DNA of 64,000 bases from Vulcanimicrobiota bacterium. Its GTDB lineage: Bacteria; Vulcanimicrobiota; Vulcanimicrobiia; Vulcanimicrobiales; Vulcanimicrobiaceae. Below the pieces are notes generated by a model, which worked only from the letters and a program-made list of their open reading frames with translations, was not told where the DNA came from and made no database searches. The position numbers and the translations under genes are program-made. Positions 4,906 to 9,570 of the stretch are shown piece by piece. The stretch's first letter is position 1; every line of letters begins with the position of its first letter. Location of the stretch: the NCBI GenBank assembly GCA_003140215.1, contig PLJL01000001.1, positions 1 to 64,000 of the forward strand. Direction: 5' to 3'.

Positions 4906-6210
4906 TTAGCGCTGGGCGTAGGTCTGGCCGCGCCGAGTGAGCACGAGCTCGGCGTAGAGCGCGTTGGGCCACGCGAAATCTTCACGCGTGTACGACTCGG
5001 GCCAATCGGAGTTGAACGATTCGTGCAGGCGGTGGTCGCCGACGTCGGAGACCGCGATCCAGCTGAAGAGCTGGTCGACCTCTTTGTCGTCGCTTGCGGT
5101 CAGCGCTTGCACGCACAGGGCGAGCGGCCATACGTAGCCGTGCGGTGTATGCGGGCTCCCGATCCCCTGCGCGTACTTGCCGCGGAAGAAGTACGGGTTG
5201 CGCTCGGAGAGGGCGAAGCGGCGGGTCGCCAGATAGAGCGAGTTCGTACGCGGAAGATACCCGAAGTAGGGGATCGAGAGGAGCGAGGGGATGTTGGCGT
5301 CGTCCATCACGTTGGCGTGGCCGCGCCCGTCGACTTCGTAGGCGTAGATGCGGCCGAACGGCGCCAGCTCGAGGGTGCCGTACTGCTCGATCCCGCGCTG
5401 GATCTCGACCGAGAGCCCCCACGCATTGCGCGCCATGCGCTCGTCGTGCCACACGTCGCGCGCGACCTTGGTGAGGTCCCGCATCACCACCGACGCGAAC
5501 ATGTTCACCGGGATGTTGTAGTGGTAGCGAACCGGGTCGTCGGAGGGGCGGAAGGCGGTCCACACCATCCCCGTGTAGCGCACCGCGCTGCCGCGCCCGT
5601 TGTTGGCAAGTTGCGGGTGTCGGTAGCGCGAGCGTCGCGGGTGGCGCTGCTCGACGCGCATCGTCGCCAGCACCCGATCGAACGCCCGGCGTACCTCGGG
5701 GGTGAAGATGCTGCGGTCTCCGGTTTCCTTGTAATAGTCGGAGGCGAACCACACCGGGTAGAGCAGCGAGTCGACTTCGAATTTTCGCTCGACCACGCGG
5801 TAGTTCTTGGAGAACGCGTTGGCGTAGGGGTCGAGCAGGATGTACTTGGCTTGGCGCGCGACGACCCCGCGCAACGTCCGGGCCACGTCGCCGTCGTGCC
5901 GCGAGAGCCCGATGTAGGGCCGAACGGTCGCGCTTGCGTCGCGCAGCCACTCGGCCTCGATGTCGCCGGTCGAAACGTAGGTCGTGCCGTCGCGCTGGGC
6001 GAGCGCGTGGCGCTGGATGGTCTCGTCGTAGGCCGTGAGGTAGAGCCGGTCGAGCTTGGCGTTGAGCACGGGGCTGAGGGTGAGCCCGTCGCCGGCGCGC
6101 ACGGGAACAGCGGTGGCGATAACGGAGAGCGCGACCACGGCGGTGAGAATCCGGCGGTGGATGCGATTCAGCAACTCACCATCCGTATCGGCACGTTTCC
6201 GTAGTACCAT
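4906..6210 (-). CDS. GH125 exo-alpha-1,6-mannosidase, secreted
   Basis: Glycoside hydrolase family 125 (metal-independent alpha-mannosidase, formerly DUF1237), which removes alpha-1,6-linked mannose by inversion. Family hallmarks present include GDIEAEWLRDASATVRPYI, RYHYNIPVNMFASVV, YAYEVDGRG followed by DDANIPSLLSIPYFGY, and HESFNSDWPESYTREDFAWPNA cut here to its core FNSDWPESYTREDF. The 434-aa protein begins with a basic stretch and a hydrophobic segment ending in VPVRA, a plausible signal peptide. The ATG at 6210 is chosen for that reason although no clear ribosome site precedes it; a TTG about 40 bases in, after GGTGAG, is the alternative. The next gene, divergent, is also exported. Confidence 0.85.
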   Translation of the reverse strand: MVLRKRADTDGELLNRIHRRILTAVVALSVIATAVPVRAGDGLTLSPVLNAKLDRLYLTAYDETIQRHALAQRDGTTYVSTGDIEAEWLRDASATVRPYIGLSRHDGDVARTLRGVVARQAKYILLDPYANAFSKNYRVVERKFEVDSLLYPVWFASDYYKETGDRSIFTPEVRRAFDRVLATMRVEQRHPRRSRYRHPQLANNGRGSAVRYTGMVWTAFRPSDDPVRYHYNIPVNMFASVVMRDLTKVARDVWHDERMARNAWGLSVEIQRGIEQYGTLELAPFGRIYAYEVDGRGHANVMDDANIPSLLSIPYFGYLPRTNSLYLATRRFALSERNPYFFRGKYAQGIGSPHTPHGYVWPLALCVQALTASDDKEVDQLFSWIAVSDVGDHRLHESFNSDWPESYTREDFAWPNALYAELVLTRRGQTYAQR

Positions 6211-7017: not shown

Positions 7018-7101
7018 GCCCCGGACCCCGGCCGAAGGCGAATTGATCGATTAAGGGAACACGCGCAACCGGCGCTTGGACGGGCCCGGTTGAGGACCCT
7101 G

Positions 7102-7755
7102 ATGAGTGCGCTCGCAGCACCGTTCATCGGAGACCACTACCGCGTGACCGCACCGGCGACGGTGTCGCAACCCGTTCCGGGTCCCGAGACCTTCGAAACG
7201 ATCGTCGACGATTTTCAGCGTCGGCTCTACGGCTTCGCGCTCCGCATGACGGGCAACCGCGAAGACGCCGAAGAGATCGTTCAGGATGCCTTCGTGCGCG
7301 CCTACCGGGCCCTGGCCAAGATGGACCCCCAACAGCGCGCCGAGCTGCGTTTGCAGCCCTGGCTCTACACGATCACGCTCAACGTCACCCGCAACCGGCT
7401 GCGCTCGAAGCGACCCACCAACGTCGCTCTCGACGCGCTGGCCGACCCCGACGCGCTCCTCAACGAGACCCAAGAAGGGCCCGATCAGCCGGAGCAGATC
7501 GTCGACCGCGCCGCCGACATGATCTTGGTCGAGCAGGCCTTGCTGCAGCTGCCGATGCACCTGCGGGCCGCTGCGACGCTGCGCTTCATCGAAGGCCGCA
7601 GCCACCCCGAGATCGCCGAGATCCTCAATCAGCCCATCGGCACGGTGAAATCGCACGTCCACCGGGCGGTGCGGATCCTGCGCCGCATCCTCGGGCCCCA
7701 AGTCGGACGAATCGTGCCGATCGATCGTCCGTCGCCCGGCGAGGAAGAGGAGTAA
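7102..7755 (+). CDS. ECF (group 4) RNA polymerase sigma factor
   Basis: 217 aa. Sigma region 2 is visible at FQRRLYGFALRMTGNREDAE with EIVQDAFVRAYRAL, and region 4 at LPMHLRAAATLRFIEGRSH with EIAEILNQPIGTVKSHVHRA as the helix-turn-helix that reads the -35 element. An unconserved 30-residue N-terminal tail precedes region 2. The ATG at 7102 is preceded by TGAGGA; a TTG 12 bases earlier is possible. The next gene begins 5 bp after the stop and has an anti-sigma zinc finger, so it is the likely partner that holds this sigma factor inactive. Confidence 0.93.
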   Translation: MSALAAPFIGDHYRVTAPATVSQPVPGPETFETIVDDFQRRLYGFALRMTGNREDAEEIVQDAFVRAYRALAKMDPQQRAELRLQPWLYTITLNVTRNRLRSKRPTNVALDALADPDALLNETQEGPDQPEQIVDRAADMILVEQALLQLPMHLRAAATLRFIEGRSHPEIAEILNQPIGTVKSHVHRAVRILRRILGPQVGRIVPIDRPSPGEEEE

Positions 7756-7760
7756 ACCCC

Positions 7761-8525
7761 ATGCGCTGCTGCGACGTCGAACGTCTATGGGACGAGATGC
7801 GCGAAGGGGTCGAGCCTCGACGCGAGCACGTCCTTGCCCATCTGCGCGCCTGTCCCGAGTGCCAGGAGATCTACCGCGAGAACGAGGGCATCGCGTACTG
7901 CCTGACCTGTCTGCCGCCGGTCGATCCGCCGCAAAGCCTGGTCCCGGGGATCCTCGACCACATCAAGACCGCGGTCAAAACCATGACCCCCGACTCGATC
8001 GCCAAGGTCGACTCGCCGATCGGGGGGCTCTACGTCGCCTTCCGGCACACCGGAATCACCGCCGTCGCGCTGGACCGCGGCGAAGGTGAGGAAGCGGTCT
8101 TCGGCAAGCTCCAGCGCCGGCTGGGCCGCGGCTTGATCCCGTCGCAGGCGCCGCAGTGGGTCAGCGACACGGTGGCCGCGTTCTTCCGGACCCACCGCCC
8201 CGATCTCGAGAAGGTCGATATCAGCGACCTCACGCCGTTCGAACAGTCCGCGCTGCGGGCCGCCGCGACGATTCCGCCGGGCGAGGTTCGTTCCTACGGT
8301 TGGATCGCCGAATCGATCGGGCAACCGGCCGCGTCGCGCGCCGTCGGGCGCGCCATGGCGCGCAATCCGGTCCCGTTTCTGTACCCCTGCCACCGCGTCG
8401 TCGATTCCAGCGGCGCGCTGCACCAGTACGCGTACGGCGTCGAACTCAAGGCCCGCATCCTGGCGATGGAAGGCTATAAGAGCGTCGGCCCGGTCCGAAT
8501 TGCGGTGAAGGTCCCGCGCGGGTAG
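7761..8525 (+). CDS. Anti-sigma zinc finger fused to O6-methylguanine-DNA methyltransferase
   Basis: 254 aa with two parts. Residues about 1-60 carry the anti-sigma ZAS signature H27-x3-C31-x2-C34 (AHLRACPEC) plus Cys3, Cys4, Cys47 and Cys50. Residues about 80-240 are an Ogt/MGMT suicide alkyltransferase: N-terminal beta domain starting VDSPIGGLYVAF, helix-turn-helix GEVRSYGWIAESIGQP, arginine finger region ASRAVGRAMARNP, and the active-site PCHRV with nucleophile Cys210. The canonical glycine after the active loop is replaced (HQYAYG rather than TGYAGG). It sits 5 bp after the ECF sigma gene with GAGGAG as ribosome site. Known MGMT enzymes move an alkyl group from O6-alkylguanine to the Cys; here I infer that this could report DNA alkylation to the sigma factor. 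Confidence 0.87.
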   Translation: MRCCDVERLWDEMREGVEPRREHVLAHLRACPECQEIYRENEGIAYCLTCLPPVDPPQSLVPGILDHIKTAVKTMTPDSIAKVDSPIGGLYVAFRHTGITAVALDRGEGEEAVFGKLQRRLGRGLIPSQAPQWVSDTVAAFFRTHRPDLEKVDISDLTPFEQSALRAAATIPPGEVRSYGWIAESIGQPAASRAVGRAMARNPVPFLYPCHRVVDSSGALHQYAYGVELKARILAMEGYKSVGPVRIAVKVPRG

Positions 8526-8732: not shown

Positions 8733-8874
8733 CACCATCCGGATCGGCATGCACGCAGGTCCGGATCGACAGGCTACCACCCTCGGCGTGGGCTTCGCCC
8801 GAAGGGCGAGGCTTCGGGCGCAAACCCGAATCCACCAGAGGTCCCGCGCGTCGATCGCAGAAAACCTGCGGTTC

Positions 8875-9570
8875 GTGTCCCGGCACGTTCTGCTGACCGG
8901 TTTCGAGCCGTTCGGATCCCATTCGACAAACCCCAGCGAGCTGCTCGTGCGCAGCCTCGAAGGCCGCATCGTCGGCGGGCGGCTTATCCGCGGACGCGTT
9001 TTCCCGGTGGAGAGCAGCTCGTTGCGCGGCCGCCTCGAAACGGCACTTAGCGAGGAACGCCCCGAGTTCGCGATCGGGCTCGGGTACGCGCCCGGACGCA
9101 CCGCGCTGGCGCTCGAACGGGTGAGCGTGAACGTCCTGGACTTCGCCATTCCCGACGCCTCGGGAGCGACGCGCAAGAACGAAGCCGTGCGGCCGGGCGG
9201 CCCCGACGCGTACCTCTCGACCGTGCCGTTGGATGAGATCGAGCGCGCCTGGACGAGCGCCGGCGTGCCGGGCTACGTCTCCGACAGCGCGGGCACCTAT
9301 CTGTGCAATCAATGGCTCTATGAGGCACTCTCGCTGACGTCCCAGACAAACCCGACCATCCCGGTCGGCTTCATCCACGTCCCCGCGCTCCCGGCCCAAG
9401 CCGCACAGCTCGGCGCCGCGAACACGCCCTCGATGACGGTCGAGCTCATGGTAAAAGGGATCGAGACCGCGATCGAAGCGCTCGGGCAGTGGATCGCGTC
9501 CAAGCCCGCGGCGCAGCCGCAACCCGCGGCGGACAAACTCTGGATCCCCGGCGGATTGGCGAAACGTTGA
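8875..9570 (+). CDS. pcp: Pyroglutamyl-peptidase I
   Basis: Cysteine peptidase (family C15) that removes N-terminal pyroglutamate from peptides. 231 aa from a GTG at 8875, close to the usual 200-230. Visible family blocks: LLTGFEPFGSHSTNPSE at the N-terminus, the Glu of the triad in LERVSVNVLDF, the nucleophile Cys in SDSAGTYLCNQWLYEAL, and the His in VGFIHVPALP. The C-terminus has a short Gln/Pro/Ala extension. The reading frame stays open upstream of the GTG, but that extension is not conserved-looking. Its TGA overlaps the TTG start of the next gene, and an oligopeptide-binding lipoprotein follows, suggesting a peptide-use unit. Confidence 0.88.
   Translation: MSRHVLLTGFEPFGSHSTNPSELLVRSLEGRIVGGRLIRGRVFPVESSSLRGRLETALSEERPEFAIGLGYAPGRTALALERVSVNVLDFAIPDASGATRKNEAVRPGGPDAYLSTVPLDEIERAWTSAGVPGYVSDSAGTYLCNQWLYEALSLTSQTNPTIPVGFIHVPALPAQAAQLGAANTPSMTVELMVKGIETAIEALGQWIASKPAAQPQPAADKLWIPGGLAKR

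Follow-up and report, generated by a model that had tools for sequence, protein, structure and literature searches.

A predicted thiol-responsive anti-sigma factor fused to an O6-alkylguanine alkyltransferase domain in one order of Candidatus Eremiobacterota

We detected an ECF sigma factor gene followed directly by a gene for a single protein that joins a ZAS anti-sigma-like domain to an Ogt/MGMT domain, and we read this pair as a thiol/electrophile switch of the SigR/RsrA type whose anti-sigma factor bears an autoregulated repair domain, so far in one order of Candidatus Eremiobacterota. We place the probability of this reading at roughly 0.57. The architecture, its conservation, the adjacency to the ECF gene, and a promoter motif shared with other genes were read directly from the DNA, and from these sequences we infer sigma binding, zinc binding, redox release, and repair activity of the fusion. 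As long as the cell is reduced, the ECF sigma factor would be held by the zinc domain (Cys3, His27, Cys31, and Cys34); once the zinc-bound thiolates are oxidized or modified by electrophiles, the zinc would be ejected and the sigma freed. The freed sigma factor would then transcribe its own operon, trxB, lineage-specific stress genes, and occasionally an alkB-like gene. Thioredoxin reductase would return the system to its reduced state, and freshly synthesized fusion protein would capture the sigma again. The C-terminal Ogt domain would be an active suicide O6-alkylguanine repair module and, because it is located on the anti-sigma factor, would be induced with the response. Such a switch fits the candidate ZAS ligands, the predicted autoregulation of the operon, and trxB as a common predicted target.

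The window, meaning the whole 64-kb stretch of DNA that was analyzed, belongs to a genome of 3.9 Mb in 7 contigs. Its ECF gene (7102–7755, forward strand) encodes 217 aa with Pfam matches to Sigma70_r2 (PF04542, 1.6e-16) and r4_2 (PF08281, 7.5e-14). After a gap of 5 bp on the same strand lies the fusion ORF (7761–8525), a single continuous frame of 254 aa, and these coordinates confirm the first-pass annotation, which had described an ECF gene and then one unbroken fusion protein. Residues 1–72 (7761–7976, forward strand) make up the anti-sigma-like domain with the candidate zinc ligands, and residues 78–240 (7992–8480, forward strand) the Ogt/MGMT domain (PF01035, E 1.7e-28), whose nucleophile Cys210 lies in a PCHRV motif (codon 8388–8390). 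The H27-x3-C31-x2-C34 finger and the PC210HRV motif were both found in the fusion sequence as that annotation had them; the annotation made no mention of a fourth candidate ligand, Cys3, which is invariant too. The predicted ECF-type promoter of the operon occupies 7065–7095 (forward strand), with GCAACC at 7065–7070, a 17-bp spacer, and GGTT at 7088–7091, and the ATG of the ECF gene at 7102 would make the operon near-leaderless from this promoter. Nearby we observed a GH125 alpha-mannosidase-like gene (4906–6150, reverse strand) and a pyroglutamyl peptidase gene (8749–9570, forward strand), with no evident link to the sigma/fusion pair. Of two further Ogt-domain matches in the same genome, L003 has no ECF neighbor and L002 immediately follows another ECF gene.

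The fusion is widespread in the window's order. A protein search over 98 genomes, consisting of the 65 of this order (G000–G064, Candidatus Eremiobacterota) and 33 others, detected it in 64 of the 65, with 62 full-length copies and two interrupted by contig ends (G009 and G054); the search did not find it in the remaining order genome, G010, itself 81% complete. Among the matches listed for the 33 genomes outside the order, only the Ogt part was covered. An assembly artifact or chance fusion was considered and ruled out because the 62 full-length copies occur in separate genomes. The 64 fusion loci were read with the start codons chosen as those nearest the aligned start, the N-terminus being kept in 63 and the C-terminus in 63. 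Wherever the corresponding half was kept, Cys3, Trp10, Asp11, His27, Cys31, and Cys34 in the N-terminal half and Tyr179, Asn202, Pro209-Cys210-His211-Arg212, and Glu237 in the C-terminal half were each found in 63/63.

The first-pass annotation had asked whether the ZAS-Ogt order always comes after an ECF gene, and in all 63 loci that extend far enough an ECF gene does lie directly upstream on the same strand; among these loci there was no fusion without the zinc ligands or without an ECF neighbor. The two reading frames overlap by 14 bp in 46 loci and by 11 bp in 5, and are separated by 0–8 bp in 12. Scanning named genomes gave 256 confirmed relatives, and among the best 80 of these, which were kept, the titles were mostly Candidatus Eremiobacterota, Eremiobacteria, WPS-2, UBP12, or Vulcanimicrobiota, with several given only as "bacterium." Two contigs titled Rhodospirillales (L269 and L270) carry the window family at 57–59% identity and are probably mislabeled Eremiobacterota bins.

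The N-terminal domain is anti-sigma-like and resembles the ZAS domains of RsrA and RsiW, each model matching weakly. On the window protein alone, Pfam zf-HC2 gave E 0.22, which is under the Pfam cut-off, and the scores against the curated cut-offs of the ZAS models were 19.5 bits versus 100 (NF052375) and 11 versus 62.5 (TIGR03988). Across the family, zf-HC2 matched 31 of the 61 members, the NCBIfam model NF052375 ("anti-sigma factor") matched all 32 sampled N-terminal domains at E<=0.05 (best 7.6e-7), the RsrA model TIGR03988 matched 21 of these 32 at the same threshold (best 7e-6), and the ChrR model produced weak matches in 6 of the 32, so it is the family-wide matches, not the single window sequence, that support the zinc-finger assignment. 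The H-x3-C-x2-C pattern with its upstream fourth candidate ligand was present in the ZAS domain in 63/63. A profile of this domain found the solved chains of RsiW (5wuq_C, E 1.6e-4) and of 3hug_B (E 0.0096), which is listed as a conserved membrane protein and which we take to be RslA, and the ECF sigma factor matched the partner chains of the same entries, 3hug_A and 5wuq_A (SigW, its closest solved chain, E 3.9e-24). Helices were predicted at residues 4–14, 21–30, 32–49, and 60–71 in a structure model with a mean pLDDT of 84.5 and block means of only 58–75 over the first 80 residues.

The Ogt domain appears intact and is predicted to be capable of alkyl transfer and repair. PF01035 was found in 61 of 61 fusion-family members, and the domain combines this match with the PCHR[VI] nucleophile motif. 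Its structure model matches OGT of Mtb (E 1.2e-12) and Ada-C of E. coli (TM by target length 0.84). Alkyltransferase-like proteins have lost the nucleophile cysteine, and a protein of this kind was ruled out by the presence of Cys210 in 63/63. Pfam and family-model searches of the window protein found neither an Ada zinc domain nor an AraC-type domain.

Upstream of the ECF gene, a two-part motif, GNAAC[CT]-N14-17-GGT, given more narrowly as G[AC]AAC[CT]-N14-17-GGT, is conserved; of 61 loci, 54 have a match to a loose promoter pattern there, and a few of these matches are off-target. The promoter matrix was trained only on ECF promoters, from 53 of the 61 upstream stretches; L016 and L046 were of insufficient length. 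Among 52 scored loci, the first ATG comes 9–14 nt after the -10 GGT+1 in 49, and 35 have a spacer of 17. The operon promoter (7065 on) is the best-scoring site of the 64-kb window on either strand (score 18.4). Matches to the ECF-promoter pattern TGAAACC-N16,17-GGTY-N5,20-ATG occurred in 30 of 44 genomes versus 2 for the backwards control, and the loose pattern GMAACCN{16,17}CGGTY gave 112 matches in four same-genus genomes versus 78 for its backwards control.

Besides the operon itself, trxB was the most widespread predicted target, a mark of SigR/SigH thiol stress. With the ECF-only matrix, 39 of 53 trxB loci (51 genomes) had sites scoring at least 12, versus 13 of 764 background ORFs (stop-free frames of at least 200 aa, sense and antisense; Fisher 1.6e-43). 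Counted by genome, a trxB site was present in 39 of 55 order genomes versus 0 of 25 trxB loci (22 genomes) outside the order, in a test that took in 55 of the 65 order genomes, G010 with no detected fusion among them, and in which relatedness was not controlled. TIGR01292 names both tested trxB products thioredoxin-disulfide reductase, above cut-off. In the window's genus only 2 of 8 trxB loci match the loose pattern, and the trxB site of the window's own genome is a weak variant, GGAACC-N17-GGGTTGAA, with a score of 6.2. The strict pattern MAACCGGN{14,16}GGTYGAA was detected in 40 of 51 order genomes at 59 sites, 33 of them at trxB, with 6 control sites; outside the order it was detected in 5 of 25 genomes at 5 sites versus 13 control sites. 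Because this pattern was read off trxB promoters, its 33 trxB matches are not independent evidence, and the result is informative only as a contrast with the control and with the genomes outside the order. The promoter motif common to the operon and trxB is of the kind expected for a SigR/SigH-type system, as judged by motif only.

The TGAAACC pattern yielded about 50 distinct sites, of which 17 were the operon itself, as expected by construction, and 33 were non-self. Thirteen of these 33 lie just before a recognized gene: trxB (3), htrA-like protease (3), zinc dehydrogenase (2), and one each of Dps-like ferritin, aldo/keto reductase, MFS, EamA, and PilZ. Sites were also found before uvrB and thyX (one each) and before an aldehyde dehydrogenase gene, and less well-placed ones near a thioredoxin gene (one genome) and a lipoyl synthase gene. 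When 26 strict-pattern sites were read closely, 6 were well placed before a named gene and 20 were without a well-placed start of a recognized gene. With only 13/33 and 6/26 sites well placed before named genes, many pattern matches are thus chance, and targets other than trxB, htrA-like, and alkB-like genes were mostly limited to one genome each.

Genes related to alkylation were rarely preceded by a site. Among 57 loci with an alkB-like gene (PF13532), 4 have a strict site just before that gene, 3 of them among the 29 loci of the first gene set and 1 among the 28 of the second; other ORFs of at least 150 aa in these loci have none. By matrix, with 54 loci after 3 of the 57 gave no ORF and were left out, alkB-like genes had sites in 12/54 versus 38/764 background ORFs at 8 bits (p 3.6e-5), 7 versus 24 at 10 bits (p 0.003), 4 versus 13 at 12 bits (p 0.02), and 3 versus 7 at 14 bits (p 0.02), an enrichment that depends on the score threshold. 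Promoter sites were found at 0 of 8 AlkA_N-domain genes and at 0 of the 13 Ogt-domain genes without an ECF neighbor that were examined (4 outside the order, 1 incomplete). Given so few sites at alkB-like, AlkA_N, and Ogt genes, alkylation repair is therefore at most an occasional part of the predicted regulon. A pure Ada-like regulon was rejected as the main reading on the strength of the site-free AlkA_N and Ogt genes and the dominance of trxB.

A sister family, which we call family B, occurs at 14 loci of the order (L002 and L067–L079), each with an ECF gene and then an Ogt domain whose C-terminal end is Cys-rich and Ada-like; the window's own genome contributes L002 (C4, about 1.02 Mb). The H-x3-C-x2-C pattern was absent after the start codon in all 14 of these proteins, the one regex match, in L078, preceding the start, and Pfam Ada_Zn_binding matched 5 of 5 order members tested, above cut-off in 3. 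In one of the 14, L072 (G003:C310), the sigma gene is split over two frames, by assembly error or as a broken gene. The same arrangement was found in three actinomycete records, from Nonomuraea gerenzanensis, Rubrobacter radiotolerans, and Streptomyces sp. NBC_01022 (L093:3396–4705; L452:2328–3696; L453:1566–3582), the Streptomyces pair being on a plasmid with a further Ogt gene behind it; 6 of the 390 plasmid-collection records with an Ogt match were examined. By eye, GNAAC[CT]-N14-CNGTGTT stands just before the ECF start in all three records and is of the type of many window-family promoters, which favors the view that the motif belongs to this sigma lineage. Within the order, the motif is missing from the family-B ECF genes, save three loose partial matches. 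The Ogt tree puts the window family in a single clade (96/94), whose sister group, joined at only 89/73, is family B together with two further rows; the sigma tree has three outgroup rows, and with so few of them, and long branches that meet, its union of the window family and family B in one clade is weak. L085 (G071), in a family outside the order, has an Ogt gene that groups with family B in the Ogt tree and no detected ECF neighbor; loss or gain of the ECF link may lie behind this. Family B is a better candidate than the window's pair for a sigma-based alkylation response.

The main competitor to a thiol switch is the reading that the first-pass annotation had offered, in which the sigma factor is freed when Cys210 takes up an alkyl group from DNA, or when the alkylated protein is turned over, in a self-titrating, Ada-free response. 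The invariant acceptor motif, Asn202, Tyr179, and Glu237 argue for it, as does the sister family, which couples a related ECF to an Ogt domain and an Ada zinc domain and in the Streptomyces plasmid is followed by another Ogt gene. Alkylated MGMT-type proteins are also destabilized, and strict sites do precede alkB-like genes in 4/57 loci and uvrB in one genome. However, alkylation as the main signal sits poorly with a predicted regulon dominated by trxB (39/55 genomes) rather than by repair genes, with site-free AlkA_N genes (0/8) and Ogt genes without an ECF (0/13 examined), with alkB-like sites as sparse as 4/57, and with ZAS ligands that by themselves resemble a redox sensor, and we consider it doubtful. 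With about the same reserve, we consider that the protein may be a dual sensor, its ZAS half sensing thiol oxidation or electrophiles and its Ogt half sensing alkylated DNA by suicide transfer, with either freeing the same sigma. If so, an Ada-independent, sigma-based alkylation response would be fixed across an order, and the sister branch (ECF, Ogt, and Ada zinc domain, also in actinomycetes) would keep the alkylation input alone.

Two further readings carry less weight with us. The trxB-type motif could be read by a different sigma factor, the fusion operon being merely one target of that promoter type, and the window's genome does have five other, stronger zf-HC2 matches, several of them beside ECF genes. 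Yet none of these five loci is within 10 kb of a GMAACCN16-17CGGTY site, no trxB site was found outside the order where the pair was not found (0/25; relatedness not controlled), and related actinomycete ECF genes bear the same motif type, making this explanation improbable. It seems to us very improbable that the Ogt domain serves just to position the anti-sigma factor, as a DNA tether or inert scaffold: although His221 (62/63) and Tyr225 (61/63), in the active-site loop, are characteristic of the window's fusion family where human MGMT has glycines, the nucleophile and its catalytic neighbors are invariant over an order.

The thiol/electrophile switch that we prefer has close parallels in known systems. 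SigR-RsrA of Streptomyces and SigH-RshA of Corynebacterium and Mycobacterium are described in PMC3961337 as autoregulated pairs of an ECF and a ZAS protein with thioredoxin reductase as a target, and in one of its two ligand models RsrA uses Cys11-His37-Cys41-Cys44, a set that the window's four candidate ligands resemble. The SigH-RshA network of C. glutamicum, as given in PMC3489674, includes trxB, lipA, a quinone reductase, uvrA/uvrC/uvrD3, and a putative methylated-DNA-cysteine methyltransferase, so an Ogt protein under such a regulon is not strange; its fusion to the anti-sigma itself is, whereas the methyltransferase gene of C. glutamicum is a separate target. According to a 2022 review (PMC8999054), RpoE-ChrR of Rhodobacter sphaeroides likewise has a soluble ZAS domain and then a second domain proposed as the sensor. 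That domain is cupin-like and the signal is singlet oxygen, where the window has Ogt. The same review assigns ECF122 a conserved 6-O-methylguanine methyltransferase neighbor, classes it without an anti-sigma factor, and gives its mechanism as unknown. Compared by description only, the window ECF pairs with an MGMT domain as ECF122 does with an MGMT gene but belongs to a family with a ZAS domain, and family B probably belongs with ECF122.

Like Ada, the window protein would link a suicide alkyl acceptor to transcription, but its control would act via a sigma factor, and it is without the Ada zinc domain that family B has. Stress signals commonly reach anti-sigma factors, but in the open-access literature searched, outside of which lies the main ECF classification paper, we found no description of one that bears a suicide enzyme of DNA repair. 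If the Ogt half only repairs, the supply of repair protein would be coupled to a thiol-stress regulon, and if it also senses, it would represent a second evolutionary solution to the problem that Ada solves; a single protein may thus connect the repair of DNA with chemical stress acting on proteins. The analysis also supplies predicted promoters for the window's phylum, which has few cultured members. Three ECF-promoter-like sites (G000:C5:786750–786776, G004:C12:252589–252615, and G005:C1:314279–314305) contain TTAGCACTC, which resembles half a CIRCE element, and groE-type genes may therefore share the promoter.
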